DNA of 34,462 nucleotides. Source: a virus. The stretch lies in IMG/VR virus record IMGVR_UViG_3300009176_000055, positions 1 through 34,462 of that record. The stretch is one strand, 5' to 3'. The notes under the pieces are model-generated. The model searched no databases and was not told where the DNA came from. It saw nothing but the letters and a program-made list of their open reading frames with translations. Shown piece by piece: positions 2,448 through 28,881 of the stretch. Position numbers and translations under genes: made by a program. Position 1 is the stretch's first letter. The number at the start of each line of letters is the position of its first letter.

Positions 2448-3869
2448 ATGGGATTCCTTAGACGAACTTACCGCGCCAGGCCTATTCCTGAATTGCTTGA
2501 CGGAGAGAACTGGGAGGTAAGAAATTCCAATGATGTGAGCAGGGCTTACGTTGATTTCGATAAACGTGAGTTCGTAGTTCCATTTGAGGAAAGTCCGGCA
2601 GGAGAACTCACAAGAGCGCATGAAGCTATGCATGTGAAGATTTCTCCTAGGGATTACGTCCGTCCCGATGATATGGGATTTACAACCTTGCAATCGGTTG
2701 AAGATTGCCGTGTCTGGCAGGGACTCCGTGTTTGTGGAATCGAAACGAATAACAAAAGAGCAAGAATCTTTGACGATGAAAGACTAAAAGAGGCTTTCTC
2801 TAGTCCACAAATGCAGCATCCCATGAAACACGCGGAAGCTTTGTTTGCGACAAGAGGGACAGCGGAAGAAAAGACCTGTCGTGAATTGTCTGATAACAGG
2901 GCTGTCGAAATCGTTGACAAACTTGCAGAGAAGTATTTTAATCCCGATGAACGTAATGGGAAGATTACTTCTTTCGAGGACGCAATGGCCTGCGCCAAGG
3001 AGTTAAGAGAACTAATCCAAGAAGCAACTCCAGAAATGGAAATGCCTGAGCCTGATGGTGACCCCAGGGCAGAGCCGGGTGAAGAAGGAGATCAGAACGG
3101 GAATATCACTTATTCCTGGGAGCCTGCTCCTGAAAGTCCAGAGCAGACTTCTATTTCCAATTTGACAGAGGAGGAAAAACAGGAAGCAAAAGATATGGGT
3201 CTAGAGCATATTCCTGAGAACGAGATAACTTCATTCAAGTATCCGAATGACTTTTCTGACCCAGGAAAACTTAGGCCTATTGAGCATCCCAAGCTCGATC
3301 ACGCAATTAAGTTTAAGATGACTGACAGCGTAAAAATGACGCCCTCAGACGAAGGAGTTATTCCAGTCAGAATGCATCGATATGCAACTGATATGAAACT
3401 CTTTTCTAGAAAAGGAAGAAGACGCGCTGGAGCCGCTGTTCTAATTGATGTAAGCGGTTCAATGTCATTGAGCAATGAGATGATTCTGGATATTATCAAA
3501 CAGTGTCCAGCATCTATTGTTGCTATCTACTCGGGCTTTAGAACTGATGGTATTCTCCGTATCGTTGCAGAGAACGGAAGATACAACACAGATCTAAAGC
3601 GTGGAATGGGTGGAGCTAACGTAGTGGACGTTCCTGCACTGCATTGGCTTGCTAAAAGAAAGGAAAAGAAGAAGCTCTGGATTTCAGACGGTTGGATTAC
3701 CTGTCAGAATGAGAATATGGCTTATGAGGAAGAGATTCGTAAGCTAACTAATCTCATGAGAGAAAAGAAGATAGAGAGAGTAGGAAATGTCCGTGAGCTT
3801 TTAAAGTCCGGTAAACTCATTGACCATGCCTTCGATGATGGTCACGAACTCGGAAGGGGAACGAAATAA
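2448..3869 (+). CDS. VWA-domain protein with N-terminal zincin motif (CobT-like)
   Basis: A 473-residue protein with a strong AAGGAGGTG Shine-Dalgarno directly upstream. The N-terminal region carries an HExxH zinc-protease motif (HEAMH, residues 58-62) with a possible third ligand in SVEDCR (83-88). A long acidic linker rich in Glu and Pro follows (about 190-245). The C-terminal VWA domain has the MIDAS signature DVSGS at 333-337 and SDG at 412-414. This architecture resembles phage CobT-like proteins paired with CobS/MoxR AAA+ ATPases, here the gene at 735. The pair probably acts as a metal-dependent, ATP-driven remodelling or protease machine; its target is unknown. The cobalamin label used in databases is probably misleading. 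Confidence 0.85.
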   Translation: MGFLRRTYRARPIPELLDGENWEVRNSNDVSRAYVDFDKREFVVPFEESPAGELTRAHEAMHVKISPRDYVRPDDMGFTTLQSVEDCRVWQGLRVCGIETNNKRARIFDDERLKEAFSSPQMQHPMKHAEALFATRGTAEEKTCRELSDNRAVEIVDKLAEKYFNPDERNGKITSFEDAMACAKELRELIQEATPEMEMPEPDGDPRAEPGEEGDQNGNITYSWEPAPESPEQTSISNLTEEEKQEAKDMGLEHIPENEITSFKYPNDFSDPGKLRPIEHPKLDHAIKFKMTDSVKMTPSDEGVIPVRMHRYATDMKLFSRKGRRRAGAAVLIDVSGSMSLSNEMILDIIKQCPASIVAIYSGFRTDGILRIVAENGRYNTDLKRGMGGANVVDVPALHWLAKRKEKKKLWISDGWITCQNENMAYEEEIRKLTNLMREKKIERVGNVRELLKSGKLIDHAFDDGHELGRGTK

Positions 3870-9206: not shown

Positions 9207-10397
9207 GTGACCGCCGAGACTACTACCTCTCTATCTAACTTCCTTACGGATATGATCGCCCCTCTTCAGGAGTCCTTTCCGAAGAGGACTGTTCTTTCTG
9301 ATGAGTTGAAGAGAAATACGCGGAGGGAGAACTTCCGTGGTCTTCAGGTTCGCGTTCCGCTGCTTCTTACTCCTAAGCAGGGTACGGGTGGAATTGCACA
9401 GACGGGTACGCTTAACGTCGCTAGGCAGTTGGATGACAAAGCAGCCTTCATTACGATGGCGCGTGTCACCCACGCTATTGAGCTTTCAGTTGACCTTATT
9501 AAGGCGGCTGAAGGAAATAACTTTGTTGCTGCGGGTTCCGCTCTTAAGCTCCACATGGAGCAAGCAGAGGTTGGCCTGAGCCGAGTTGAGAACGAGATGC
9601 TGGTGGGCGATGGTACTGGACTTCTCGCCGGGCCGGTTACTTCCGCTACGACCAACACCACTCTCGTTGTCCTCGGTACTACGGCTAACTATTACCCTCT
9701 GTATCCGGGCCGGATTGTGGATATCTTCCAGACGGGCGGCACTTCAGTTTCAGCTTCCCGCACGATTGTCTCCGCAACTTCTACCTCGGTGACTCTGGAT
9801 GCTGCTGTGACCGCCACTACGGGGTCTGCGGTTTACATCGAAGGAACTTTCGGTAATGCTACCCAGGGGCTGAGGCAGCCTTTCGCTACCACGGGTACAT
9901 TTGAAGGTATTGACCTCGGTACGGTGGTTGGGTTTAGATCTATTGACGGGCGTGGTGGCTCAACTGCTGCTGACCTTTCGATGTCGATCCTTGACGGTTC
10001 TTTCCGCCGAGTTATGCAGGCTTCGGGTAAAGCTCCGGACTTCTGGATCGGAGATCCTGCTGCAATTGATAAGTTCGGCCAGGGTCTGGTTTCTCAGTTC
10101 CGCTGGCAGCCTAAGATCACCCGACTTGATACGGGTTGGGAAGGGATTGACTATCGCGGCACTCCGCTAATCCCTGAATTCGATATCGCTCCTGGAGAAC
10201 TATATGGCATTAACAAGAGCGCCATTACTCTCTACGGATTTGGGAATGGGCCTTCATGGGATGACATGGACGGCAATAGGTTCCGAAGGTTTAACCGCTC
10301 TCTGCCGGTAGAGGCTTGGCTTGTTGACTTCCTCCAGATGGGAATCCATCAGCCTAACGCACTCGTCAGAATGCAGGGTCTGAACCAGGCAGTCTAA
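9207..10397 (+). CDS. Major capsid protein (HK97-fold type)
   Basis: A 396-residue protein recognised as a tailed-phage major capsid protein. It has an N-terminal helical arm (about 1-45), a conserved beta-rich region with VPLLLTPKQGTGGIAQTGTLN, a central Ser/Thr/Ala-rich insertion (about 150-215) that reads as an extra surface domain, and a C-terminal A-domain-like part ending in VEAWLVDFLQMGIHQPNALVRMQ. The length suits the family. No protease, scaffold, portal or terminase gene is adjacent, which is unusual. GTG 9207 directly follows the previous TGA and lies 7 nt after TATTAT. Confidence 0.85.
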   Translation: MTAETTTSLSNFLTDMIAPLQESFPKRTVLSDELKRNTRRENFRGLQVRVPLLLTPKQGTGGIAQTGTLNVARQLDDKAAFITMARVTHAIELSVDLIKAAEGNNFVAAGSALKLHMEQAEVGLSRVENEMLVGDGTGLLAGPVTSATTNTTLVVLGTTANYYPLYPGRIVDIFQTGGTSVSASRTIVSATSTSVTLDAAVTATTGSAVYIEGTFGNATQGLRQPFATTGTFEGIDLGTVVGFRSIDGRGGSTAADLSMSILDGSFRRVMQASGKAPDFWIGDPAAIDKFGQGLVSQFRWQPKITRLDTGWEGIDYRGTPLIPEFDIAPGELYGINKSAITLYGFGNGPSWDDMDGNRFRRFNRSLPVEAWLVDFLQMGIHQPNALVRMQGLNQAV

Positions 10398-10400
10398 GAT
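10395..10400 (+). promoter_or_regulatory. -10-like element
   Basis: TAAGAT ends 6 nt before ATG 10407. It overlaps the capsid stop codon (TAA at 10395-10397). No Shine-Dalgarno is present. Confidence 0.6.
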
Positions 10401-10406
10401 ACTTAG

Positions 10407-10676
10407 ATGGCAGTTAAGCGAATGTATACCGGGTCGGGTAGGACTGAATCTTCCTCACCTGCTAAGGGCAGCAAGACTGCTGAAGATGTTCATACCCTTC
10501 ACAGGATTGCCGATAGTCTTCATTCTGACTACGAAGATCACGCCAATACGATTCGCCATGTAGCCAAAGCCCTTTCTATGGGAGATTCCAAGTCAGGAAA
10601 GGCTGGAGTTAAAGAACATAGAACTAATCGTGGTGGCAGCGGCCAGAAAAAGACCAATGCTGCTCTGGGAGGCTAA
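10407..10676 (+). CDS. Unknown hydrophilic protein downstream of capsid
   Basis: An 89-residue protein with low-complexity ends: MAVKRMYTGSGRTESSSPAKG at the start and a Gly/Lys/Asn-rich tail. A central helix contains several His (VHTLHRIADSLHSDYEDHANTIRHVAKAL). It is probably a minor capsid-associated or head-completion protein by position only. The start is leaderless-type (TAAGAT, 6 nt). The stop overlaps the next small start (TAATG). Confidence 0.7.
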   Translation: MAVKRMYTGSGRTESSSPAKGSKTAEDVHTLHRIADSLHSDYEDHANTIRHVAKALSMGDSKSGKAGVKEHRTNRGGSGQKKTNAALGG

Positions 10677-10729
10677 TGGCAGGCCCCTTCCCCACAACTG
10701 CAACTAAGCCAGTAAGGATCAGACGATGA
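10676..10729 (+). CDS. Possible 17-residue peptide bridging two genes
   Basis: ATG 10676 overlaps the previous stop (TAATG), and its own stop overlaps the next ATG (ATGA at 10726-10729). The peptide is MAGPFPTTATKPVRIRR. GGGAGG lies 4 nt upstream. The double coupling is exact, but the frame is short, so it may be only a coupling device or chance. Confidence 0.35.
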   Translation: MAGPFPTTATKPVRIRR

Positions 10730-10869
10730 ATCCCTGGACTGACATTAATACTTGGAAGGAATTCCTTTGGGATATGCGACATCCGGGACAACTTTGGCAT
10801 CGCATGAAAGAAGGAACCCGCGTGGCTATGAACGATTGGGTATCATACCTGAATGCCAAGAAGCCCTAA
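10726..10869 (+). CDS. Small Trp-rich protein, 47 residues
   Basis: ATG 10726 has AAGGATC as Shine-Dalgarno with 5-nt spacing. The product starts MNPWTDINTWKEFLWDMRH and is rich in Trp, Met and basic residues, suggesting an amphipathic helix. It overlaps the glycosyltransferase start by 17 nt. No family is recognised. Confidence 0.55.
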   Translation: MNPWTDINTWKEFLWDMRHPGQLWHRMKEGTRVAMNDWVSYLNAKKP

Positions 10870-11686
10870 GAAGCCAAACCCCACTAAGAGCATTCCTCAT
10901 GAGGTGGCAGCCCTGCCGCCCAGGATCTATGAGTTTGACCCTAATACTCCTCTAATTAGAGAACTACAGGAGAAACTACCCGGAGGTATGGTGGCAATCT
11001 TGGCTAACGAGAGCGCCAGATATACGGTCTTCCAGGCCGCTTGTATGGCAATGATCTTGCCGACTGGCTCTAGGTATGGCTTTCATACCGGCTGTTATGT
11101 CACCGATAGCTGCAACCGAGCTACGGCCTCAATGCAGCCAGAGGAAGACTGGATCATGTTTATGGGAGACGACCATAACTTCCCCCCAAATCTTGTCCTT
11201 AAACTCCTGACCAACATGTATAAGGACGATCTAGATATCATCGTTCCGGTTTGCTTTAAGCGGGACTTCCCGCCTACGCCTGTTCTTTACAAGTACGGTG
11301 TCGCTGAGCCAGGAGTTGATTACTCCAAGTACGCTTATGAGGAGAACGACAATACCTTCCTTTGCCCCATAAATCTCAACGCCTTCCCAGAAGGAGGTTT
11401 GATCGAGGTAGACGGAGCCGGTAGTGCTGGTATGATTGTACGCCGTCGTGTAATGGAAAAACTGGAGCCGCCATGGTTTAGGCTTGGCGTTGGTATGTGG
11501 GGAGAAGATCTTGATTTTTGTCGTAGGGCGCAGAAAGCCGGGTTTAAAATCCACGCAGATCTGGATATGTCTCTTGGGCACATCATCAATACTACTATCT
11601 GGCCCGAGCAAACTGATGAGGGACAGTGGGGTTGTCAATACGACCACGGTAATAAGGGAGGGCTTTTCCTAACACTATGCGAATGA
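10853..11686 (+). CDS. GT-A type glycosyltransferase
   Basis: A 277-residue protein resembling family-2-like GT-A glycosyltransferases. An acidic metal-binding triad GDDH at 105-108 (MFMGDDHNFPPN) takes the place of the DxD motif. The later GEDLDFCRRAQKAGFKIHADLDMSLGHI block is the usual acceptor-side ED motif followed by the C-terminal strand and His. It probably transfers a nucleotide-activated sugar to a phage or host acceptor in the cytoplasm. It overlaps the following epimerase gene by 10 nt, so the two probably work in one sugar pathway. Substrate unknown. Confidence 0.8.
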   Translation: MPRSPKKPNPTKSIPHEVAALPPRIYEFDPNTPLIRELQEKLPGGMVAILANESARYTVFQAACMAMILPTGSRYGFHTGCYVTDSCNRATASMQPEEDWIMFMGDDHNFPPNLVLKLLTNMYKDDLDIIVPVCFKRDFPPTPVLYKYGVAEPGVDYSKYAYEENDNTFLCPINLNAFPEGGLIEVDGAGSAGMIVRRRVMEKLEPPWFRLGVGMWGEDLDFCRRAQKAGFKIHADLDMSLGHIINTTIWPEQTDEGQWGCQYDHGNKGGLFLTLCE

Positions 11687-12555
11687 TTGTAACTGGAAGC
11701 GAAGGATTCATTGGAAAGAACCTCGTAGCGCGATTAGAACGTTCTGGTCACTGGGTCTACAAAATGGACACAAAACGGGGTCTAGATATGTTCACTTCTC
11801 TAGCAACTGTGGACGTTATTTATCACTTAGCCTGCATTAATCAGGAAGAAGCGCTTAATAAACCCCTGGAGAATTTAAAAGTAAACGCATATGGCGCGAA
11901 ATTCATGGCCGAAGCAGCTAAAAGAATGGATGCGAAGCTTATTTACACCTCTACAGCCTCTGTTTACGGCGCTTCAGAGCGCATTCCGACACCTGTGGAC
12001 GCAGACATTAACCCCCAGACGGATTATGCGGTGGCAAAACTCGCTGGTGAGCACTTTATTCGCAATTCTGGCTGCGATTACAAGATTTTGAGGCTAAGTA
12101 ATGTTTATGGACCCGGCCAAACCACTGAAAATCCCTATTGCGGGGTGATTGGAAGGTTTATTGAGCAAGGAATGGCTGGAGAACCTCTGACAATGATCGC
12201 TCCAGGCACCCAAACCCGCGATTACACCTACATTGACGATGTAATTGACGTAATTACGACCACCGAAGCTGATAATACGACCAAAAACGTGTCTTCTGGC
12301 ACAGAAACTTCTGTATCCTGGCTAGCGGGGGAGATTATTAAGCTAACTGGAAGTAAATCAGGACTTGTTGTTATCCCAGAGAGAGGAATTGACGGAATTA
12401 TGCGCCGGAGGCTAATTACGGACTATCGCTGTCCCACTGCTTTGAGCGAAGGACTGGCAAGAACTGTAGAATGGTACCGTGTTACAACAGGAGAAGGAAG
12501 TCCAGCAAGCCTTGCACCACTTAGACCCGGATCTCTTTCTGGACAAACTCTATGA
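11677..12555 (+). CDS. NAD-dependent nucleotide-sugar epimerase/dehydratase (extended SDR)
   Basis: A 292-residue extended short-chain dehydrogenase. Rossmann motif GSEGFIG (G7, G10, G13), a Ser/Thr catalytic strand YTSTASVYG (90-98) and the catalytic pair Y117/K121 in YAVAK are all present. The LRLSNVYGPGQ and RDYTYIDDVIDVI blocks are typical of GalE/RfbB-type enzymes. The length is slightly short, and the C-terminal tail after TVEWYR is Ser/Pro-rich. It would make a sugar donor for the adjacent glycosyltransferase. The start could be ATG 11677 or ATG 11683, which forms ATGA with the previous stop. The exact reaction is not readable. Confidence 0.88.
   Translation: MRMIVTGSEGFIGKNLVARLERSGHWVYKMDTKRGLDMFTSLATVDVIYHLACINQEEALNKPLENLKVNAYGAKFMAEAAKRMDAKLIYTSTASVYGASERIPTPVDADINPQTDYAVAKLAGEHFIRNSGCDYKILRLSNVYGPGQTTENPYCGVIGRFIEQGMAGEPLTMIAPGTQTRDYTYIDDVIDVITTTEADNTTKNVSSGTETSVSWLAGEIIKLTGSKSGLVVIPERGIDGIMRRRLITDYRCPTALSEGLARTVEWYRVTTGEGSPASLAPLRPGSLSGQTL
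12467..12472 (+). promoter_or_regulatory. -10-like element inside the epimerase gene
   Basis: TAGAAT ends 6 nt before GTG 12479. It lies within the epimerase coding sequence, so the next gene would be transcribed from inside its neighbour. Confidence 0.5.
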
Positions 12556-12868
12556 CGCTGACGGCCAGTATGTTTATTACGCAGTACGTTATCCTGCCGC
12601 TCCTGGTCTTGAGCCTCTTACTTGTGTTCATTGGAGAACTACTGATGGTCCTCTGCCTCTTTCGTTGGATTTGGTTGGGGTTGTTAGACGTCAAGAAGGC
12701 GATATCCGCGAGGCTATCAAAGAAGCCACAATCAATAACGCCCTAAAGAAGCAAGCTCATAACCAGGACCTTCATGATGATATTGATGAAAGACTTCGAT
12801 GGATGGAGAAATCGAGAAAACGCTTGGGTCTTTATGGTCCTTGGACCAATAAGGCAAACCTACGCTAG
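12479..12868 (+). CDS. Unknown virion-region protein, 129 residues
   Basis: GTG 12479 lies 6 nt after TAGAAT and overlaps the epimerase gene by 77 nt. The first part (LDPDLFLDKLYDADGQYVYYAVRYP) is beta-like, and the last 50 residues form a charged helix (DERLRWMEKSRKRLGLYG). No family is recognised. Its TAG shares CTAG (12865-12868) with the stop of the convergent minus-strand gene. A second frame inside it, starting ATGA at 12552, encodes a hydrophobic peptide and is treated under findings. Confidence 0.68.
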   Translation: MLQQEKEVQQALHHLDPDLFLDKLYDADGQYVYYAVRYPAAPGLEPLTCVHWRTTDGPLPLSLDLVGVVRRQEGDIREAIKEATINNALKKQAHNQDLHDDIDERLRWMEKSRKRLGLYGPWTNKANLR

Positions 12869-13173
12869 GTTTTCTTTGATTCCATATAGGCTCTTAAGCC
12901 TGGGCTGAGCAAATGAAGTCGGGATGACTGTGATCTTTGACTTCTGCCTCTCTTCTCCTTGAGCCAGTCCTCTAGTTCATGAATCCTTCCAGAAGGATCT
13001 GCCTTCTTGTTGTATTCAGCAGCCTTATTTAGGATTACTTTAATCTCCAGTGTTGAAACAGAGAACTCCCTGGACGCATTTTCAATAGCTTTATCCCAAC
13101 CTGAGATCATCGCGTTCTTAGCCACTTCATTAGCAACTTCTCTTTCTCGGCTAGAAATCGTGCTGTCATCCAT
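12865..13173 (-). CDS. Inverted single gene: helical charged protein
   Basis: A 102-residue protein read on the minus strand inside the plus-strand virion region. It starts MDDSTISSREREVANEVAKNAM, is helical throughout and has a basic stretch (KEKRGRSQRSQSSR). No domain is recognised. The ATG has no Shine-Dalgarno but lies 6 nt after CATAAT on its own strand. Its start is only 9 nt from the divergent plus start, and its stop shares bases with the convergent gene. A regulatory or assembly role is possible but unsupported. Confidence 0.75.
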   Translation of the reverse strand: MDDSTISSREREVANEVAKNAMISGWDKAIENASREFSVSTLEIKVILNKAAEYNKKADPSGRIHELEDWLKEKRGRSQRSQSSRLHLLSPGLRAYMESKKT

Positions 13174-13185
13174 AATTACATTATG
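13171..13185. promoter_or_regulatory. Divergent back-to-back leaderless starts
   Basis: The 15-bp sequence CATAATTACATTATG contains both start codons (minus ATG at 13173-13171, plus ATG at 13183-13185) and both -10-like hexamers. Read from either strand it is CATAAT, 6 nt, ATG. Each hexamer overlaps the opposite start codon. There is no room for a Shine-Dalgarno between the starts and none is seen in the flanking codons. Confidence 0.65.
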
Positions 13186-13926
13186 GCAGACCAGATTAGA
13201 CCGGGATCTGAATTTAATGTTCCACCCCGAAAATTCAAAGATCTAGGAGATGGATCTTTTGCTGAAACCCTTGCTCTAGAGCCTGGATCTATTGGGGGCG
13301 GGGGAGGCGGCGGAGGTCTTACTGACACTCAGCTAAGGGCAACTCCAGTGCCTGTAACAATCCCAACTCCTACCCCTGTGTCTGATAACGGAGGGTCTTT
13401 GACCGTGGACGGCACCGTGGCTATCTCTAACCCTACGGCCAACCCTGAGACAGGCCTAGCCAAGGACGCCACGCTTACTACAAGGCTCCCTGCGGCCCTG
13501 GATGCCGATGGTGGCCTCAAGGGTCACATTCAGAACTTCCCGGCCTCACAGGCCGTTACAGGGCCTCTCACGGACACTCAGCTACGCGCTACGCCGGTGC
13601 CCATCAGCGGCACCGTAACAGCTACCGGGCCGCTAACCGATACACAGTTAAGGGCCTCTGCGGTTCCAGTTTCAGGAACGGTTACTGTCTCAAACCCTAC
13701 TACGAACCCTGAAACGGGACTGGCAAAAGATGTAACTTTGGCCGCTCTTTCTGCCCTGGTAGGGACTGCTGTTGATTCTCCTGGGGCTTACACCCTTCTA
13801 GATAGACTTAGCAAGCTTCAGTCGATTAATAACCAGCAGCTTACGGCTCTTAAAACCCTGGTAGCCAACTCTGCTCCCAAGGTTATTCCTAAATATCAGA
13901 GCACTCTTCTACATCGCTCCCTCTAA
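13183..13926 (+). CDS. Fibre-like structural protein with internal repeats
   Basis: A 247-residue protein with a poly-Gly linker (about 33-45), then three copies of LTDTQLRA(T/S)(P/A)VP(V/I) and two copies of an NPETGLAKD block. Low-complexity Pro/Thr/Ala spacers separate them. The C-terminal part is helical (SKLQSINNQQLTALKTL). This repeat is common in phage tail or virion surface proteins and suggests an elongated beta structure. It is probably a virion fibre or decoration protein. The start is leaderless-type (CATAAT, 6 nt). Confidence 0.75.
   Translation: MADQIRPGSEFNVPPRKFKDLGDGSFAETLALEPGSIGGGGGGGGLTDTQLRATPVPVTIPTPTPVSDNGGSLTVDGTVAISNPTANPETGLAKDATLTTRLPAALDADGGLKGHIQNFPASQAVTGPLTDTQLRATPVPISGTVTATGPLTDTQLRASAVPVSGTVTVSNPTTNPETGLAKDVTLAALSALVGTAVDSPGAYTLLDRLSKLQSINNQQLTALKTLVANSAPKVIPKYQSTLLHRSL
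13318..13671 (+). repeat. Three protein-level repeats (LTDTQLRATPVPV type)
   Basis: Copies begin at 13318, 13567 and 13633. The peptide is conserved but the codons differ at many synonymous positions, so the repeats are old and kept by selection on the protein rather than recent DNA duplications. Confidence 0.7.
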
Positions 13927-13929
13927 AAT
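13924..13929 (+). promoter_or_regulatory. -10-like element
   Basis: TAAAAT ends 8 nt before ATG 13938 and overlaps the previous stop codon. AAGGA abuts the ATG directly, too close to act as a Shine-Dalgarno. Confidence 0.5.
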
Positions 13930-13937
13930 GAGAAGGA

Positions 13938-14294
13938 ATGGCACAGCAGACCGCAGTTAAGAGATCCTCAGTAGCCGCAGGCGCTAACACGGATACCATT
14001 GTTTTTACCCCCGCAGCAGGCGTTAAGTGCAAGCTTCTGACTTTTCATGTGGTTAATGAGGCTGCTGCTCAGGCCGCTGGTATGGCTTTTGAGCTTCGCT
14101 ATGGATCAAATATCATCGCCCTTGTGGGTTTTGATACTGCTACAGCAAACATTGGGGCTATGACTAAGCAGGCAGTTATTGCACATGAATTTATTGGAGA
14201 TGGAGTAACGACGGTAGTGGGTCGTAATTTAACGGCTCTGGCTGCTTCTTCCACCGCTGGCTACGTTGTAGCCTTTGATTCTAACTACGTTTAG
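13938..14294 (+). CDS. Small beta-rich virion protein
   Basis: A 118-residue Ala/Val-rich protein starting MAQQTAVKRSSVAAGANTDTIVF. Alternating strands fit a jelly-roll decoration or fibre-head fold. It resembles the genes at 14311 and 17400 in style, with early Ala/Gly/Thr strands and a C-terminal strand (TAGYVVAFDSNYV). No family name is certain. It is monocistronic in appearance, with a -10-like element before it and another before the next gene. Confidence 0.72.
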   Translation: MAQQTAVKRSSVAAGANTDTIVFTPAAGVKCKLLTFHVVNEAAAQAAGMAFELRYGSNIIALVGFDTATANIGAMTKQAVIAHEFIGDGVTTVVGRNLTALAASSTAGYVVAFDSNYV

Positions 14295-14298
14295 GCTC

Positions 14299-14304
14299 TA
14301 AGAT
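14299..14304 (+). promoter_or_regulatory. -10-like element
   Basis: TAAGAT ends 6 nt before ATG 14311; the gap is AAAGAG. No spaced Shine-Dalgarno. Confidence 0.6.
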
Positions 14305-14310
14305 AAAGAG

Positions 14311-14724
14311 ATGCCCATTTCTGGTGAATCCATTACCACTCAGATTCTTACGTCTCCAGATCCAGCCGCTGGATCCCAGATTACCTTTACAGCACCTGAT
14401 GATCTGGTTGTTCATTCATTGATATTTTCTTTTACTACTTCAGCCACTGTGGCTAACCGTCTAGTTGGGCTAACTGCTGATGATGGAACGACTATTTGGT
14501 GGAGAGGACAGCCTTCTATCTCAAACCAAGCAGCCTCTCTGACTTTTATTTACACAGCCTGGGAGGGGGCAGTTTTGTCTCCTACATCCTTCGGCGTTCA
14601 GATGCCTCTTCCAATCAATGGATTGAGACTTAGAAAGAATGATCGTATTGTTACCGTTTGTACGGCTTTCGATGCGGGAGATAACTATACGGCTATGACT
14701 GTGGCTGCTGAATTCCTGACCTAA
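14311..14724 (+). CDS. Small beta-rich virion protein
   Basis: A 137-residue protein starting MPISGESITTQILTSPDPAAG. Beta-strand pattern with TAPDDLVVHSLIFSFTTSATVANR and a C-terminal RKNDRIVTVCTAFDAGDNYTA. It is likely a jelly-roll decoration or fibre component by position and composition. No specific family is recognised. Confidence 0.7.
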   Translation: MPISGESITTQILTSPDPAAGSQITFTAPDDLVVHSLIFSFTTSATVANRLVGLTADDGTTIWWRGQPSISNQAASLTFIYTAWEGAVLSPTSFGVQMPLPINGLRLRKNDRIVTVCTAFDAGDNYTAMTVAAEFLT

Positions 14725-14726
14725 TC

Positions 14727-14732
14727 TAAAAT
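14727..14732 (+). promoter_or_regulatory. -10-like element
   Basis: TAAAAT ends 6 nt before GTG 14739; the gap is GAAGAG. Confidence 0.6.
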
Positions 14733-14738
14733 GAAGAG

Positions 14739-15182
14739 GTGGCTACGGAAACTGTCTCAATCAAGGGGAAGCTTCGGCTTGTCCTCAGGGATTCTCATGG
14801 AAACATAAAGGTAACGAGGACTTCTAATCTTGTAGTTACTGCCGGGAAGAACCATATTGCCGATCAACTTTCTTCGGCTCCTGGCGGTGGCGCTATGTCT
14901 CATATGGCTCTAGGCACCGGAACTACGGCCCCTGCTCTTGGGGATACAGCACTAGGAACTGAGATTGACAGGAATGCTCTTACCTCCAGAACTGACAACA
15001 ACAATGTCGTGACCTATATCGGCAACTGGGCAGCCGGTGATGCCACCAATGCGGCTATCGCAGAAGCCGGAATCTTTAATGCGGGAGCAGCAGGGACAAT
15101 GCTGGCTAGAGCAACTTTCACTCCTATTAACAAGACGGCCGGTGATACGTTGCAGGTCACTTGGACCGTAACGATTGGCTAA
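14739..15182 (+). CDS. Phage tail/fibre domain protein
   Basis: A 147-residue protein of a widespread phage type: a GKLRLVLRDSHGNIKVTRTSNLVVTAGKN beta-hairpin start, a central MSHMALGTGTT segment, and a C-terminal strand pair ending LQVTWTVTIG. This pattern is common in tail-associated and fibre-associated proteins. The start is leaderless-type. The stop forms TAATG with the next gene, so it leads a three-gene unit (14739, 15183, 16666). Confidence 0.75.
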   Translation: MATETVSIKGKLRLVLRDSHGNIKVTRTSNLVVTAGKNHIADQLSSAPGGGAMSHMALGTGTTAPALGDTALGTEIDRNALTSRTDNNNVVTYIGNWAAGDATNAAIAEAGIFNAGAAGTMLARATFTPINKTAGDTLQVTWTVTIG

Positions 15183-16666
15183 TGGACAGCATTCCGGATC
15201 TCACGGATCAAATGTGGGATGCTCTGATGCAGACCACCATTACAGGAAAGGAATACCTAAGGAAAGGTCAACCAGACACAGGCAAATGGGGCGAAGCTAA
15301 AGCATTGAGAGATAGGATCAAGAAACCTGTCCCTCTGAAACTCTCTCTTTCAGACAGTCCAACTATTATTGACAAAGTGGTTACTACACAAACAACAGTT
15401 CCAGTTGGTGGTGGGGGAGTTGTTCTCCCCAATCCAGGCAGCTTTTATGCACTCAAGTATTCAAATGATACTTGGCCGGTATCTGAGTTTGTTCATTACC
15501 CTAAGGCAGTTATTGATGCTGCAACTTACCCTAGTCTTACGACTATTAGAAATGCAAATCCAAATATTAAGCTCTATACCTACTGTCAGTTTATGTTTTG
15601 TAGGAATCCACAGCTTGCAGGTGTTCCTGCTGGAATTGGAAATGCTTCATTTGTTACTTTTGACGCAGCTCTAGCACACGACAACGCTAACCCTGGGGAT
15701 TTGTGGCTAATTAGAGATTCTGCTGGAAATCCTAAGCTAAGAAGCACTACTGGATATCTTCTCAATCTAGCTTCCGCAAGTCTAAGAACGCAAGCAAAAA
15801 CAAATCTAATGGCGATCATTAATGCTTACGCTGTAGATGGATTTTTCTTTGACGATGTAAATGGTCAAATTTCAGACCTAATTACCCTTCCGCCAGGATA
15901 TACAAATGCCACCTGGACAGATTTGATGATTGACTGGATGGATGATGTGCAAGATTTTCTGAGATCACAGGGCGTATATTGCCTTATGAACGCTGGTATG
16001 AGTGCAAATCCAAATGTTCCTGAAAACCCTGCCGGTGATTCTGCCTACTGGCCGCGTGTAGCTCCTCATGCAGATGGAATTATGGTTGAATACGCTTATT
16101 CAATTCAGGGACTTCCCACTCCTAATCCTCCGAACGGAGAGCCTGGAGGAATAGAAAATCCCTTAATGAATGTAGACCCAACTGCTTGGACAGGTCATTG
16201 GGATTCTTGGTATAAATCAGTAAAATTAATTCAAGACTTAAACCTAGATGTTTACACAATTATCTACGGATCTCAGGCTCTTGTTAATGGAACTGTTGAT
16301 TATGACAATCAAAAAATGCTCTATGGAAAAGCTTCTTATTTGCTGATAAGAAATAATATTAATGCAGGAGGATTTGCTTTTATTCAAAGCCCTAGAGGAG
16401 GAGCTAATAATGCGTCTCCATTTAGCCCACTCTGGACTACTGATATAGGTGTTCCTGAAGCACCAACCCTAGATCCGATTCTATCTCCCAACGAAGGGGT
16501 TGGATATAAGAGATACTTCACCAAGGGGGTAGTAGTAGTCAATCCTCATAAAGACACCCCTCAGTTGTTTAATCTTGGAGCGCCTTATACCTCTCTATAT
16601 GACAGTCTTCCTTATAGCCAGATCACTGTGGCTCCGCGCAGGGCTAGAATATTGACTAAACCCTAA
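15183..16666 (+). CDS. Glycoside-hydrolase-like (GHL15-type) virion protein
   Basis: A 494-residue protein starting at ATG 15183 within TAATG. The N-terminal 50 residues are a linker, then a Gly/Val stretch. From about residue 80 a TIM-barrel-like domain follows, with FYALKYSND, IKLYTYCQFM, an Asp-rich DGFFFDDVNG strand end (a likely acid/base or nucleophile site), YCLMNAGMSANP and DGIMVEYAYS. The C-terminal beta-sandwich (YFTKGVVVVNPHKDTPQLF) is typical of hypothetical glycosyl hydrolase families such as GHL15. It could degrade host surface polysaccharide as a depolymerase; activity and substrate are inference. Confidence 0.75.
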
Positions 16667-17385
16667 TGGCTAGCCCTCCTTTCGCAAATACGTTTGAAGG
16701 TGGCTCAGATGGAGTCACAATTTCCGGAGCAAACTCCGGAGGTGCTAGCGGCAACGCATTTAACCAGATCAATGGCTCTCCTACTTTCTCAGTAGACCAT
16801 CCTGCCCATGGAACTCTTGGTGTTAAATTTACTGATCCAGTTGCCCAAATGCTAGTTAGATGGATTGTTTGGGATGCTCCTGTTACTACTGATGTTTGGG
16901 TAAGAGGATATATCTGGATACCGGGGATTCCAACAGGACAGAGGTTAAGAGCAATAAATGTATCGGATAGCGCGGGTGGATCTTGCGCCTCTTTCCAGAT
17001 TACTACTGGTGGAGTAGTAGAAACTTTTCCGGCTCTTGGTACTGGAGTGCAAGGAACTCTACAGTTTCCCACTCAGGCAATTGTTCGCGTGGAAATGAGG
17101 GTTTTGCCTCACAATACTCTAGGACAAATTGAAATTCGCTGGTGGAGCACTCCGGACAGCCTGGGAACTCCCACTGAAACCGTATTGCAGACCAATTGCA
17201 ATACCTCAACTGGCACAGGAGCAAATCAGGGAAACTTTGGTGCCGGTGGATTCTTTCCTACCGTTCCATTTACTTGGTATTTGGATGATGTTGCCGTAAG
17301 CACTACGGGATGGATTGGTCCTTCTCAGGCCCCTCCTGCGGCTCCTACGCTCAGGGTTCTTAGAAGTCCTTATCGGCTGAACTAA
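16666..17385 (+). CDS. Concanavalin-like lectin-fold virion protein
   Basis: A 239-residue protein coupled to the previous gene by TAATG. The pattern suggests a laminin-G/concanavalin-like sandwich: an opening NTFEGGSDGVTIS, a central DVWVRGYIWIPGIPTG strand pair, VRVEMRVLPHNTLGQIEIRWW, and an FTWYLDDVAVSTTGWIGP closing strand. This fold often binds glycans, which fits its position behind the glycoside-hydrolase-like gene. It is probably a receptor-binding or surface protein. The family is inferred from pattern only. Confidence 0.7.
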   Translation: MASPPFANTFEGGSDGVTISGANSGGASGNAFNQINGSPTFSVDHPAHGTLGVKFTDPVAQMLVRWIVWDAPVTTDVWVRGYIWIPGIPTGQRLRAINVSDSAGGSCASFQITTGGVVETFPALGTGVQGTLQFPTQAIVRVEMRVLPHNTLGQIEIRWWSTPDSLGTPTETVLQTNCNTSTGTGANQGNFGAGGFFPTVPFTWYLDDVAVSTTGWIGPSQAPPAAPTLRVLRSPYRLN

Positions 17386-17387
17386 TC

Positions 17388-17393
17388 TATAAT
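17388..17393 (+). promoter_or_regulatory. -10-like element
   Basis: A perfect TATAAT ends 6 nt before GTG 17400. The gap CCCTTT has no Shine-Dalgarno and no -35 hexamer is apparent. Confidence 0.65.
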
Positions 17394-17399
17394 CCCTTT

Positions 17400-17831
17400 G
17401 TGGCCCGTTTTAGAAGCTCATTTAGAACCTCAGCAGGTTCTTCAACTCTGCCTATCGCTTCCCTATACGCACCTGCCGGTGGATCTGTTTATCTGAGGGA
17501 AATCTGGGTTACTAATACCACAGCTACAGACGTAGGAATAAGAGTTATCAGGCTTACTACTACGGGAACACAGGGTGCCGCTCAGACAGTCGCAGAAGAT
17601 GAAGATGGATCTGTTGCGGCTACCGCGTCTCCAAGAACCACTCATTCAGTAGCCCCTACTACGGCTGATGAAATTGGAAGAATCACTATTGGAGCAGCTA
17701 TTGGTGGTGGCGCAATTCTTCCTTTTGGTGAGCGTGGAATTAGAATCCCCGCAGGCACATCTAACGGAATCGGCCTTCTGCCTGTGGGAACCGGGCAGGT
17801 CTGCGATGTAACTCTGGTTTGGGACGAATAA
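17400..17831 (+). CDS. Beta-rich virion decoration-type protein
   Basis: A 143-residue Thr/Ala/Gly-rich protein starting MARFRSSFRTSAGSSTLPIASLYAPAGG. The strand arrangement, with YLREIWVTNTTATDVGIRVIRL and a closing VCDVTLVWDE, resembles jelly-roll phage decoration domains. Position and composition suggest a virion surface role. The start follows a consensus TATAAT. Confidence 0.72.
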   Translation: MARFRSSFRTSAGSSTLPIASLYAPAGGSVYLREIWVTNTTATDVGIRVIRLTTTGTQGAAQTVAEDEDGSVAATASPRTTHSVAPTTADEIGRITIGAAIGGGAILPFGERGIRIPAGTSNGIGLLPVGTGQVCDVTLVWDE

Positions 17832-17834
17832 ACT
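17829..17834 (+). promoter_or_regulatory. -10-like element
   Basis: TAAACT ends 6 nt before GTG 17841 and overlaps the previous stop codon. Confidence 0.5.
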
Positions 17835-17840
17835 AGAGAT

Positions 17841-18551
17841 GTGCCGCTTTTAGTCTCAGGAGGTAATCAAAGGCTTCTTCAAAGGCCTCCATCTTACGAG
17901 GCTAAACAGTATTACCCGACTTATCCAATCCTGCTAAACGCCCTAGCAGTTCTTTTCAACGTCAATATTGACGACTCAATTACTACTAGTGATGTATTGG
18001 CTAGCGGTTTTCAGATAGATGACACAGTTTCTGTATCGGATAATCTAACTAAGGACGCGATTGGAATCGCAGATTCAGTAGGCATTGCAGATAACCACTC
18101 AGAGCTTGGGGTTGCAATTGTCCCCCCAGGGATGGGATACCTTCTGGTTAGAGAGCCTGGAGGAATTGATCGCAAGGCATTGCTAGGCCCTTATCCACAG
18201 CTTATTGGTCCTGTTAAATTCCTGGTCGGTGTAAATAGATTTGATCTAGAAACCGATGCTGTCCCTCTTGCAGACCAGCCCTTCCTAGATAGACATCCAA
18301 ATACGGATGATGACATTCTTACGATGTCTGACAATATTGTGATCTCTACTACTGGGGCTAGAACTCTTGCTGATTCTCTAACCCTTGCAGATTTGATTAA
18401 TTTCCAGACTAGTTCTGGTAATAATCTCACTCAGGACATTACAGATTCTGTTGCCCTCGGAGACGCAGTTTCTATTTCAATCGGCGGGAACGTCTTTGAA
18501 CCGGTGTATGTTGCGCCGAGCCAGCAGGGTCCATACATGCGTTTGACATAG
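17841..18551 (+). CDS. Structural protein with D-S-V-x-x-x-D type repeats
   Basis: A 236-residue protein. After an N-terminal region with QRPPSYEAKQYYPTY, it contains degenerate short repeats with Asp flanking Ser/Thr/Val strands (DSITTSDVL, DTVSVSDNL, DSVGIADNH, and later DSLTLADLI, DSVALGDAV). Such repeats are typical of elongated, possibly calcium-binding, phage fibre or surface proteins. A middle segment (about 95-150) is non-repetitive. The binding role is inference. Confidence 0.7.
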   Translation: MPLLVSGGNQRLLQRPPSYEAKQYYPTYPILLNALAVLFNVNIDDSITTSDVLASGFQIDDTVSVSDNLTKDAIGIADSVGIADNHSELGVAIVPPGMGYLLVREPGGIDRKALLGPYPQLIGPVKFLVGVNRFDLETDAVPLADQPFLDRHPNTDDDILTMSDNIVISTTGARTLADSLTLADLINFQTSSGNNLTQDITDSVALGDAVSISIGGNVFEPVYVAPSQQGPYMRLT

Positions 18552-18554
18552 CCT

Positions 18555-18560
18555 TATAAT
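18555..18560 (+). promoter_or_regulatory. -10-like element
   Basis: TATAAT ends 6 nt before GTG 18567. The gap is GGAGGA, which touches the GTG with no spacing and so could not act as a normal Shine-Dalgarno. Confidence 0.6.
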
Positions 18561-18566
18561 GGAGGA

Positions 18567-18974
18567 GTGAACCCTGCCGTAATTATCGCTCTAATAGCGG
18601 CTTTTCTAGGCCCTCTTGTTACCTATCTAGTAACTGCCAGGAAGTTTTCTGGAACTATCACTACTTCTGCCGCAGAAGACCTGTGGGCTGAGTCTAAATC
18701 CATTAGACAGGACTATCAGAGGCGAATTGAGGAGCTAAATCATGTTGTAGCTAGCTGTCAAAAGCGTATTGGGATTCTTGAGAAGAGAAATGATGAACTT
18801 TATCTAGAAAACGGCAACCTTAAGAGAATGATTGAACAGCATGAAGAGACTATTTCTGAACTGAGATCTCTTGTTCATGATCTTTCAGATGAAAACAAAG
18901 CACTTAAGCTTGAGAACACCAATTTGAAGGCCCGAGTCCTAGAATTAGAGGAAGTAAACAATGGAAGAGCTTAG
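18567..18974 (+). CDS. Membrane-anchored coiled-coil protein
   Basis: A 135-residue protein with one N-terminal membrane helix (about residues 3-24, PAVIIALIAAFLGPLVTYLV), then a long heptad coiled coil from about 40 to the end (ELYLENGNLKRMIEQHEETI). It overlaps the next membrane gene by 14 nt, so the two are probably made together. Topology resembles phage spanin-like or membrane-tethered lysis accessory proteins, but it sits in the tail region, so an envelope-penetration role is equally possible. Confidence 0.7.
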   Translation: MNPAVIIALIAAFLGPLVTYLVTARKFSGTITTSAAEDLWAESKSIRQDYQRRIEELNHVVASCQKRIGILEKRNDELYLENGNLKRMIEQHEETISELRSLVHDLSDENKALKLENTNLKARVLELEEVNNGRA

Positions 18975-19329
18975 GAATGCATTTAAATGGCTTGCTGCGG
19001 CTACTGTTTTCTTATTTGTGGCCGTAGTTATTGCTGCTTCAGTTGCCTTTCTATCACTACAGCACAGATCTCAAGAAATTCAGGCTCTAGCCAAGCAGGG
19101 AGAGCAGGCTCATAAAGGAGAATGTGTTCTTAAAGAGGATCTAAGAGATAGAATCCAGACCTCAATTATTGACATTTCCAATGCAGAGCTTTATTTGGCT
19201 AAACATCCAGACGGAGTAGGGGGAATTACAAGGACAGACATTATCACTGCCCTCAATGTCAAAAAGGATCTACTCAAGAGCCAGAGGAGAACTCTCAATG
19301 CTCTATCAGTTGTAAAATGTGATGGATGA
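18961..19329 (+). CDS. Membrane protein with helical ectodomain
   Basis: A 122-residue protein. One strong membrane helix (about 13-33, AATVFLFVAVVIAASVAFLSL) is followed by a helical soluble part with two Cys (GECVLKEDL and VVKCDG). GAGGAAG upstream in the previous gene serves as Shine-Dalgarno, unlike most late genes here. With the gene at 18567 it forms a membrane pair. Its last codons contain the TAAAAT that precedes the next gene. Confidence 0.7.
   Translation: MEELRNAFKWLAAATVFLFVAVVIAASVAFLSLQHRSQEIQALAKQGEQAHKGECVLKEDLRDRIQTSIIDISNAELYLAKHPDGVGGITRTDIITALNVKKDLLKSQRRTLNALSVVKCDG
19313..19318 (+). promoter_or_regulatory. -10-like element within a coding end
   Basis: TAAAAT ends 7 nt before ATG 19326 and is read in the previous gene as part of Val-Lys-Cys. 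Confidence 0.5.
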
Positions 19330-19925
19330 ACTTCCTGGAACTCCAGAATGAGGTAATTTCAGACCGCTTTGATGAGGGGCGGAGGGACAGTATCAAGTCC
19401 TGGATCAACTACAGATATGGCCGGATCTGGGCGGCGGCAGACTGGACCTTCAAGCTTCAGACGGATCTTTTGTCAGTTGACCAAGGCACTCAGAATATTT
19501 CCAGAGGAACCAGAGGAGATATTCTCTCTATCTCAGACGGAACCTATGGCACTGGGTTTGATCCCATGTATGCCAACAGGCCTGAGGAGTTCTTTGATAA
19601 GTCAGTCCAGACGGCGGCCAGGCCCATTGGCTACACCATTATTGGGGATCTTATTTGGTTCAATGCTCCCCTGGATGTAACCCGTTCTTATCGGGTTATG
19701 AGCGAGACTAAGTTTGTGTTGCTCTCAGCAGACAGTGATATTCCAGCTATTCCAGAAGAGTTCCATTACATGCTTGTCCACGCTGCGGCTTCTGAGGGCT
19801 TGCTGAAAGAGAATGATCCATCTTGGCAGGGAGAGGAGCAACAGTACGAGGCTGCTCTGGACGGAATGAAAGAGGAATACCTCTCAAATGCTGTCTATTA
19901 CGATCATTTGCCCTCATGGCCCTAA
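19326..19925 (+). CDS. Head-tail adaptor (P22 gp4-like)
   Basis: A 199-residue protein starting MNFLELQNEVISDRFDEGRRDSIKSWINYRYGRIW. This opening is characteristic of short-tailed phage head-to-tail adaptor/connector proteins, whose helices pack under the portal. The middle is beta-rich (SISDGTYGTGFDP), and the end is helical with AASEGLLKENDPSWQGEEQQYEAAL. It is directly followed by the nozzle-like gene, the order expected in P22-like tails. Assignment is by pattern and context. Confidence 0.72.
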   Translation: MNFLELQNEVISDRFDEGRRDSIKSWINYRYGRIWAAADWTFKLQTDLLSVDQGTQNISRGTRGDILSISDGTYGTGFDPMYANRPEEFFDKSVQTAARPIGYTIIGDLIWFNAPLDVTRSYRVMSETKFVLLSADSDIPAIPEEFHYMLVHAAASEGLLKENDPSWQGEEQQYEAALDGMKEEYLSNAVYYDHLPSWP

Positions 19926-19928
19926 AAT
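19923..19928 (+). promoter_or_regulatory. -10-like element
   Basis: TAAAAT ends 6 nt before GTG 19935 and overlaps the adaptor stop codon. Confidence 0.6.
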
Positions 19929-19934
19929 AAAACT

Positions 19935-21407
19935 GTGGCCGCTAAAGACCTTATCTATAGAGATTTCTCCGGGGGAACCAATGCAAGGGACTGGCCTTCT
20001 GAGCTTTCTCCCAATGAATTTCCATATTCTCTTAACGTAACAATTGACGAGCGCGGTTACGCGCAGAAGCGCCTGGGATATGAGGATCGCATCGGCTCTG
20101 CCGTGGGAACTGGCCTAATCAGCAATCTATTCTACTGGGCTACTAATAACTCTGTTGTTTCCCAGATTGGGGTAAACCTTCACAAGGACGGAAATACCGC
20201 CTTCCATACCTTTACAAGCACAGATAGATGTGGTCTTTGCGAATTTGCTGGCAATCTTTTCATTACCCATCCTCTAGACGGCTGTTTTGTCTATGACGGC
20301 TCTACGGTAACTGCGGTTGCCTCTGGCCCTCGGGGGAATTCCTGCGCCACCTGGCAGAACAGGGTTTGGGTTAATGATCTTACCGCGCCCCCGCGTCTGT
20401 GGAGGAGCGACGTAGGGGTATCTACTTCCTTCGGGGCTACGAACTTTGTAGACATCAGAGAAAAGGACTCATCTCAAATTCGCTGCATTACAGGATCTTC
20501 TGGACTGGACATCGCAGGCCGTCCTGGTTTGCTGGTCTTCAAAGATTCCTCTGCCTACCGAATTAACGATCCATCTACTGGCGGATATCAGACGATTGAT
20601 CCTTCTGTCGGCTGCGGAAGCAATATTGGAGCTGTTACAGCTTATGGCCGAACTTATGTAATTTCCACACGGGGGATTTACTCCACGGATGGTCTTGACC
20701 CATGCCGAGAGGAGAGCCGACTTATGGAGCCGCTTTTCAATAAGTTGCAAATCAATCAGTCACGCCCAGATCTTTACTGCGCCGGTAGATACCAGGACAG
20801 GCTCTGGTTCTCCTTGCCTAGGGCAGGACAGAGCGCAAATTCAATTGCACTGGAATATCACCCAGAGAGTAAGTGGATTGTTGCTCACACTAATGCCGCC
20901 TCCGCTTATGCGGTTCTTACGCAGACTACAGATCTTGTTTTTGGATCTCCTACCACAAATAGGCTTTATAACTTGGCAAAGGGAGGTTCTGATGCAGGTG
21001 TTCCAATCACCTCTGCATTTCAGACGAGATGGGCAGAGCCTTCTGATGGAAGGAAGTCACGACTTCGTAAAGCCCGATTTGTTGGTCGTGGAACTTTCCA
21101 GGCTGACTATTTCAAGGACTATCAGAATGGTGCTTCTCAAACTGCTAGCCAGATCAATATCAATCCTGGTGGACTAATTTGGAACGAGGCTAACTGGAAT
21201 GAGGCTGAATGGGGACCTCTTTTCTTCCAGTCTTATCAGACCTTTTGGAGCCTTGGAACTTGCCGGGCTTTGTCTGTGTATATATCAGAAACTTCTTCTA
21301 TTTCTACCTCGGGGCTGACGGTGGCAGGAGGAGTGGTCCCTACAGAGATTGGTGCCTGGGAATTGGCTTATATTGATTTCCTGACTTATGACTTAGGCAC
21401 CGTTTAA
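19935..21407 (+). CDS. Tail nozzle/hub protein (P22 gp10-like beta-propeller)
   Basis: A 490-residue protein. The opening LIYRDFSGGTNARDWPSELSP followed by a KRLGYED segment is typical of short-tailed phage nozzle proteins, in which the chain lists a gridded set of propeller blades. Repeating blade-like strands include CEFAGNLFITHPLDGCFVYDG and RVWVNDLTAPPRLWRS, and TAYGRTYVISTRGIYSTDG follows. The length is close to P22 gp10 (about 470). It would extend the tail below the adaptor. Family level is inference from pattern. Confidence 0.75.
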   Translation: MAAKDLIYRDFSGGTNARDWPSELSPNEFPYSLNVTIDERGYAQKRLGYEDRIGSAVGTGLISNLFYWATNNSVVSQIGVNLHKDGNTAFHTFTSTDRCGLCEFAGNLFITHPLDGCFVYDGSTVTAVASGPRGNSCATWQNRVWVNDLTAPPRLWRSDVGVSTSFGATNFVDIREKDSSQIRCITGSSGLDIAGRPGLLVFKDSSAYRINDPSTGGYQTIDPSVGCGSNIGAVTAYGRTYVISTRGIYSTDGLDPCREESRLMEPLFNKLQINQSRPDLYCAGRYQDRLWFSLPRAGQSANSIALEYHPESKWIVAHTNAASAYAVLTQTTDLVFGSPTTNRLYNLAKGGSDAGVPITSAFQTRWAEPSDGRKSRLRKARFVGRGTFQADYFKDYQNGASQTASQININPGGLIWNEANWNEAEWGPLFFQSYQTFWSLGTCRALSVYISETSSISTSGLTVAGGVVPTEIGAWELAYIDFLTYDLGTV

Positions 21408-21410
21408 ACT
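21405..21410 (+). promoter_or_regulatory. -10-like element
   Basis: TAAACT ends 7 nt before ATG 21418 and overlaps the nozzle gene stop. Confidence 0.45.
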
Positions 21411-21417
21411 GTAAAGA

Positions 21418-22230
21418 ATGCCAACTGTCTCTCTTACAGATCCCTCTCCGCATACTAATGCGGACGCAGGGCTAATTGCCACCAATAACGGGAACCTGAG
21501 AACACTTCTTAACGGAGGACTAGATGGCGCAAACCTTCTAGGAACTCCCGCTCTAGTTTCTGGAGAAGTTCCTGTTTGGAATGGATCTCAATTTGTTAGG
21601 TCTTCTGTTACAAGGGTTGGGGCAACAAGCCTTGGTTCTGGCACTCCAGATGCAACTAAGTTTCTTCGCGGCGATGGATCTTGGCAGGTAGTTAATCCTG
21701 GGCCAACTTTTACTTATGCAACAACACCTCCTGGCTCTCCTACCAATGGAGATATTTGGTATTTCGTGGACTCCACTTCTGCCCCTACATATCAGTGGAC
21801 AATGCGCTACAACTCTTCAGAGGCTACAAATAAATGGGAGTGTGTTGGTGGAAGTCCTGTCCAGTTGACCGTTGCCGCTGATGTAAATACTGCAAGTGCA
21901 ACTTTTGTTGACCTTGCTGGTGGACCTACATTTACCGTACCCAGGGCAGGAGATTGGTCTTGGAGAATTGAACATGAAGCTTGGAATGCAACAGGAAACT
22001 CTGTTGCTGTATCTGCGGCAAAAAACGGAGCAGTTGCTACAGCAGAAGCAGATGCTGTAAAAACGCTTAATACTTCAGCAGGCAACCCAGGAATTACTGG
22101 ACATTGGAGTGGGTCATTTACAGGAATGGCTGCTTCAGATGTTATTAAGCAACAGTATCGAGCGGGTGCTGGTGGTACTCAGCACTTCTTGAATAGGAAG
22201 CTCTTTGTAATTCCTATTAAGGTTGCTTAA
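21418..22230 (+). CDS. Tail fibre-like protein
   Basis: A 270-residue protein. The N-terminal part includes NNGNLRTLLNGGLDGANL and SLGSGTPDATKFLRGDGSWQ, the FLRGDGxW block common in phage fibres. A Gly/Pro-rich segment with PTNGDIWYFVDSTSAP and QWTMRYNSS follows. The C-terminal 130 residues look like a jelly-roll (FTVPRAGDWSWRIEHEAWN). It is probably receptor-binding. Its TAA shares TTAA (22227-22230) with the convergent minus-strand gene. Confidence 0.75.
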   Translation: MPTVSLTDPSPHTNADAGLIATNNGNLRTLLNGGLDGANLLGTPALVSGEVPVWNGSQFVRSSVTRVGATSLGSGTPDATKFLRGDGSWQVVNPGPTFTYATTPPGSPTNGDIWYFVDSTSAPTYQWTMRYNSSEATNKWECVGGSPVQLTVAADVNTASATFVDLAGGPTFTVPRAGDWSWRIEHEAWNATGNSVAVSAAKNGAVATAEADAVKTLNTSAGNPGITGHWSGSFTGMAASDVIKQQYRAGAGGTQHFLNRKLFVIPIKVA

Positions 22231-23276: not shown

Positions 23277-23293
23277 CTAGAATTATTCTAGTA
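23277..23293. promoter_or_regulatory. Divergent intergenic palindrome
   Basis: The 17 bp between the minus GTG (23276) and plus ATG (23294) consist almost entirely of CTAGAATTATTCTAG (23277-23291 plus TA), an inverted repeat with 7-nt arms around one T. Each strand carries a TAGAAT hexamer, 8 nt before the minus start and 10 nt before the plus start. It could be a shared divergent promoter or an operator. No Shine-Dalgarno is present. Confidence 0.5.
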
Positions 23294-24673: not shown

Positions 24674-24674
24674 C

Positions 24675-24680
24675 TAAGAT
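24675..24680 (+). promoter_or_regulatory. -10-like element
   Basis: TAAGAT ends 6 nt before ATG 24687; the gap is ATAGCT. No Shine-Dalgarno. Confidence 0.6.
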
Positions 24681-24686
24681 ATAGCT

Positions 24687-28875: not shown

Positions 28876-28881
28876 AATTTG

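Follow-up and report, generated by a model that had tools for sequence, protein, structure and literature searches.

A 15-bp inverted repeat as a predicted bidirectional, doubly leaderless promoter between two late phage genes

Two divergent gene starts within 15 bp

Can two phage genes that diverge from start codons only 9 bp apart both be transcribed from the few nucleotides around those codons? The question is raised by positions 13171-13185 of a viral contig of 34,462 nucleotides (IMG/VR record IMGVR_UViG_3300009176_000055), which was analyzed over its full length and is called the window here. An earlier note on this DNA had described a 15-bp element in which both strands read CATAAT-N6-ATG, each hexamer overlapping the opposite start codon, and this description proved exact. 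The element is a perfect 6-3-6 inverted repeat, CATAATTACATTATG, comprising two overlapping predicted leaderless promoters together with the start codons of a minus-strand ORF (12865-13173) and a plus-strand ORF (13183-13926). The predicted -10 hexamer of the plus gene occupies 13171-13176 on the plus strand, with a spacer of 6 nt to the ATG at 13183, and lacks the usual T at -12; that of the minus gene, also CATAAT, occupies 13180-13185 on the minus strand, again 6 nt from its ATG at 13173. The start-to-start distance on opposite strands is 10 bp, the opposite gene's start codon lies inside each hexamer, and no Shine-Dalgarno (SD) sequence is present upstream of either start.

The minus gene, with a product of 102 aa, lies inside a plus-strand late cluster and is convergent with a late gene upstream coding for 129 aa (12479-12868, plus strand). 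The plus gene codes for a tail-fibre-like protein of 247 aa with LTDTQLRATPVPVSG repeats. Five relatives of the phage, L083 to L087, were identified by the similarity of their major capsid proteins (99 to 62% identity). L084, L086, and L087 have the 102-aa gene at the corresponding place, again on the opposite strand, and L083 lacks it. A sister contig (IMGVR_UViG_3300005544_000069) is 97.7% identical to the window and has an identical 15-mer. Relative to it, the minus ORF carries 18 substitutions, all 18 at third codon positions (p ~3e-9); the plus ORF and the 9-bp gap carry none. No in-frame start codon lies upstream of either ORF, and each N-terminus aligns with its relative in L084 from the same start. 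Because no upstream extension is possible and the N-termini align, the starts are sound as annotated. Real starts further downstream, by which the earlier note's layout would have failed, are not indicated. As judged by sequence comparison, both ORFs are real genes.

Some features of these genes are recorded in their own right. The substitutions in the minus gene (window 12946-13144) amount to 5.8% relative to the sister contig, with 0-0.3% in the flanks, and this gene looks as if it had been exchanged singly by recombination. Each of the two minus-strand late genes shares 4 bp with the stop codon region of the plus gene before it (12865-12868 and 22227-22230), so there is no space for a terminator. 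The tail-fibre-like protein (gene 13183 in the window, 5415 in L084) keeps its N-terminal 41 residues in L084 and has a different sequence thereafter, as would an anchor with exchangeable tips. The 102-aa protein had no Pfam hit, and its best PHROG match reached only E 0.053. Its predicted model (pLDDT 75) is all-helical and gave no fold match below E 0.4; the best, nonsignificant structural matches include many helix-turn-helix domains.

One reading of the locus is that a small inverted repeat lies by chance between two close start codons and has no promoter function. Irrespective of sequence, the window contains 17 perfect 6-3-6 repeats versus 8.4 expected, so the symmetry of the 15-mer by itself is ordinary, and a 17-mer, CCATAATNNNATTATGG, is present in many unrelated viral contigs away from divergent starts. 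In shuffled versions of the window, the expected count of the exact 15-bp pattern was 0.00. Against chance, the probability that both hexamers score as well as CATAAT, given CAT-N9-ATG, is ~3e-4, and the adjacent late genes obey the same -10/N6/start grammar, as detailed below. We find coincidence hardly credible. The repeat has its 6-3-6 form because two -10 elements and two start codons are superposed at a start-to-start distance of 10. Its arms, each made of the 3 bases of a start codon plus AAT or ATT, are two -10 ends laid over two start codons, and a separate operator is unnecessary.

Upstream signals of late genes in the phage and its relatives

Late and early regions were assigned by position, and upstream signals were counted in all fetched sequence of the window and its relatives. 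TANNNT was located 6-7 nt before the start of 54 of 106 late genes, and an SD sequence preceded 3 of 106. The other genes had leaderless-type starts in 6 of 134 cases and SD sequences in 42 of 134. The difference in leaderless signals (54/106 versus 6/134) corresponds to a Fisher p of ~2e-17, a value that overstates the evidence because the sequences are related. In the window, TANNNT at spacer 6 was found at 10 of 22 late starts (12 of 22 with C allowed at -12) and at none of 29 early starts; it preceded 0.6% of the non-start RTG codons used for comparison. A scan that does not depend on start choice gave a sharp peak at spacer 6, with 13, 6, 7, 4, 8, and 8 occurrences in the window and L083 to L087, respectively. 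Alignment of 45 starts, themselves selected for a TANNNT-type pattern, yielded the consensus C-13 T-12 A-11 n-10 A-9 A-8 T-7 and no signal for a -35 element. Across window positions 9207-26546 and the five relatives, initiation type splits by gene class: about half of the late genes have TANNNT-N6-start and almost none has an SD sequence, and the others show the reverse tendency.

The grammar recurs in the window as TAAGAT, TAAAAT, TATAAT, or TAAACT followed by exactly 6 bases and ATG or GTG, without an SD sequence. Predicted leaderless promoters on the plus strand read TAAGAT-N6-ATG at 10395-10409 (gene 10407), 14299-14313 (gene 14311), and 24675-24689 (gene 24687); TAAAAT-N6-GTG at 14727-14741 (gene 14739) and 19923-19937 (gene 19935); TATAAT-N6-GTG at 17388-17402 (gene 17400) and 18555-18569 (gene 18567); and TAAACT-N6-GTG at 17829-17843 (gene 17841), where TAA is also the stop of the previous gene. 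Elsewhere, a minus-strand gene at 28549-28876, coding for a small protein with a signal-peptide-like N-terminus, is preceded by TATAAT-N6-ATG; the sequence there, CATAATTTGATTATA, is one base off the 15-mer pattern and is located at a single gene start only. A MoxR/CobS-like AAA ATPase (735-1985) is followed by a 473-aa protein (2448-3869) similar to PHROG 33218, of unknown function, and the two are a possible ATPase and partner pair.

The late promoters are probably read by the RNA polymerase of an actinobacterial host. The only lead is Microbacterium phage Shocker, whose portal protein is the nearest cultured counterpart of that in L083's contig (28%), whose capsid protein is also related (24%), and which has TANNNT-N6-ATG at a few late genes. 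This likeness is a hint that agrees with an actinobacterial host without proving it. Scans of genome contigs with the capsid alignment and with the minus protein returned no relative, no near phage record was found, and the window holds no tRNA genes. L087's contig has 23 tRNAs, 22 of them in an array (L097 10832-12690) that is absent from the window.

With the -10/N6/start grammar found ahead of roughly half of the late genes in the phage and its relatives, two divergent promoters are the best reading of 13171-13185, and this part of the earlier note's proposal stands. We consider it likely that the element is a bidirectional, doubly leaderless promoter for two late genes and one instance of a family-wide scheme. 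With CATAAT exactly 6 bases before each ATG, RNA polymerase would start at or within one base of the A, and both mRNAs would lack a leader and an SD sequence. The transcription start sites would be 10 bp apart. If both coincide with the A of ATG, arithmetic places the melted DNA of either open complex (-11 to +2) on the same 13 bp (13172-13184), with strand roles swapped. More generally, about half of the late genes would be served by a leaderless C-TA(A/G/T)AAT signal without a -35 box, the other genes using SD sequences more often.

One promoter, two promoters, or a switch

The hexamers of the element occupy exactly the position of a leaderless TANNNT signal, but both are CATAAT, with C replacing T-12. 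CCATAAT scored 3.4 bits versus a training-set mean of 7.3, a weak match to the family consensus; 0.9% of all late 7-mers score as high, and with any spacer from 5 to 10 allowed the junction had a p of 0.05 on both strands. A higher-scoring heptamer, CTAATCT (5.9 bits), occupies minus-strand positions 13193-13199. It lies 19 bp ahead of the minus start, and a transcript of the minus gene begun from it could have a leader of 12-13 nt. The element might then hold only one promoter. Transcription of the other gene would begin elsewhere, at CTAATCT for the minus gene or, for the plus gene, in the upstream late genes, whose nearly gapless plus-strand cluster could be read through. However, the short leader from CTAATCT contains no SD sequence, a transcript reading through into 13183 would run antisense to the minus gene and meet a plus start devoid of an SD sequence, and both hexamers lie at the spacer of 6 preferred by the family. 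A single promoter is thus an unlikely explanation, if one to keep in mind.

The two-promoter reading can be set against other close divergent junctions, of which ten were found in six phages, with starts 10-23 bp apart. In every one of these, the best-scoring hexamers of opposite strands either overlap or are separated by 0-3 bp; at three junctions (L084 11743/11764, L085, and the second junction of L087), one strand scores no higher than random positions do (p 0.05 to 0.37). The 13171-13185 pair, with symmetric elements of opposite strands 3 bp apart, is the tightest of the ten and among the weaker in sequence because the T at -12 is missing. In the window, a second divergent junction at 23277-23291, between genes 22227-23276 (minus) and 23294-24673 (plus), has starts 18 bp apart and the palindrome CTAGAATTATTCTAG; the corresponding junctions of L083's contig and of L085 have near copies, CTAGAATATTCTAG and CTAGAATGATTCTAG. 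The palindrome, CTAGAAT-(0-1 nt)-ATTCTAG, is kept at window 23277-23291, L093 2424-2437, and L085 11028-11042, although the identity of the flanking proteins falls to 33-47% in the more distant relatives.

At the junction of the 102-aa gene, the starts are 21 bp apart in L086 and 17 bp apart in L087, with differing sequences; in L084, where the 102-aa gene has a second minus-strand gene next to it, the distance between the divergent starts is 23 bp. The exact 15-mer was not conserved beyond the sister contig in the relatives and viral contigs scanned. Among 80 sites read in the viral-contig scan, CCATAATNNNATTATGG lay between clean divergent ORFs of at least 60 aa only in the sister contig. 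A conserved operator was rejected on this result and on the differences in sequence and spacing among relatives. Conservation of the 15 bp in related phages, which the earlier note had named as a check, thus failed for the exact sequence outside the sister contig; what the relatives keep is a divergent, overlapping promoter-like junction with other sequences and spacings.

Between relatives, late genes differ singly in orientation: 18567 and 18961 are inverted in L083, and 14311 in L084. Relative to the window order, the inverted segments lie at L083 12051-12915 and L084 4736-5140, as if these genes were independent transcription units. Promoters placed gene by gene would let single late genes be turned round, and the promoter of an inverted gene would merge with that of its neighbor.

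The argument for exclusion rests on the geometry and on what is generally known of the sigma-70 -10 element. Since the predicted melted bases are identical for both directions, one orientation would exclude the other, and 13172-13184 would hold one polymerase in one orientation at a time. Steric exclusion, and with it the mutual exclusivity put forward in the earlier note, follows from this predicted geometry. The same note had gone on to suggest a phage switch. In a true two-state switch, exclusive firing would choose between the minus protein and the tail-fibre-like protein, or the repeat would be an operator for this small minus-strand protein acting as an autoregulator. Physical exclusion would be in keeping with this, as would the modeled all-helical fold of the minus protein with its nonsignificant helix-turn-helix matches, and Cluster O mycobacteriophages also have a leftward DNA-binding gene among structural genes. 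However, the sequence and spacing of the junction vary freely among relatives, no structural match had an E of <0.001, one partner is tail-fibre-like, and bidirectional promoters of Escherichia coli fire too rarely at basal level for competition. A small all-helical protein and a tail-fibre-like repeat protein are not mutual antagonists of the cI/cro type, and conserved operator sites, as expected of such a system, are lacking at this junction. The proposal of a switch was accordingly not sustained, and we rate it as highly improbable.

We think that any regulatory role for exclusion is unproven and minor. Because the hexamers are weak matches, exclusion would be a by-product of packing, although a late phage promoter might be strong; its weight depends on the firing rate of the promoters.

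The promoter reading of 13171-13185 is probably right. If so, the element is close to the smallest possible divergent control region, with two start codons, two -10 elements, and one melted region in 15 bp. It would also point to a phage group whose late genes mostly lack SD sequences and often carry leaderless signals, the others using SD sequences more, and would account for how a structural gene could change orientation singly and stay expressed. That late infection favors leaderless translation would become testable. A bolder and less likely reading is a phage lineage whose late regulon consists of leaderless promoters that lack a -35 box, serve one gene each, and work in either orientation, and in which the passage to late expression is also one from SD-led to leaderless translation and inverted neighbors share one melted region as a two-way promoter. 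The leaderless organization of late genes across the phage group is a more interesting result than the 15-bp element.

Relation to known divergent and leaderless promoters

Bidirectional promoters of E. coli have favored start-site distances of 18, 10, and 23 bp, and both directions cannot be occupied simultaneously; at five tested promoters, firing was too rare for competition unless one direction was activated (PMC12825309). If leaderless, the 13173/13183 pair falls into the 10-bp class, and distances of 18 and 23 bp also occur in its family. The symmetry of the -10 elements and the predicted exclusion of one polymerase by the other are further likenesses. Unlike the E. coli promoters, which usually have leaders, the element has start codons built into it and no -35 element, and its start sites are predicted only.

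Promoters of the leaderless TANNNT type serve ~20-40% of genes in Actinobacteria and Deinococcus-Thermus (PMC3160421, PMC3898074, PMC12340547). In Mycobacterium tuberculosis, 22-26% are leaderless, without a -35 element; close divergent promoters are common, and prpD/Rv1129c is a divergent leaderless pair (PMC3898074). The element shares with these promoters the position of its predicted -10 hexamers, ~12 bp before the start, and the lack of a conserved -35 element and an SD sequence. It differs in serving late genes of a phage, in having CATAAT rather than TANNNT, and in its starts being only 10 bp apart.

Cluster O mycobacteriophages (the Corndog group) have predicted divergent leaderless promoters, PL1/PR2 and PL2 (PMC4351075). 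There, too, both sides of a divergent pair would be leaderless, and a leftward gene with a predicted leaderless promoter lies among structural genes. Unlike at 13171-13185, the promoters are separate: in Firecracker, from which the spacings were taken in place of Corndog, 71 bp separate the starts of gp51/gp52 and 500 bp those of gp11/gp12. Restriction-modification systems offer overlapping divergent promoters of the EcoRV type and, in AhdI, a leaderless C transcript (PMC5333194). Overlapping divergent core promoters that are mutually exclusive, as predicted here, and leaderless mRNA both occur in that group, but in different systems, with a C-protein controller and longer spacing.

Within the part of the literature covered, we found no paper on two leaderless genes sharing one promoter at a 10-bp distance, nor one on gene-by-gene leaderless late promoters in a phage. 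The earlier note's view that the layout is undescribed is nevertheless not supported, as opposed start sites 10 bp apart form a recognized common class (PMC12825309) and divergent leaderless pairs are reported in M. tuberculosis (PMC3898074) and predicted in Cluster O mycobacteriophages (PMC4351075). As a promoter, the 13171-13185 element would belong to a known kind and stand out by its extreme compactness, not by novelty of kind.
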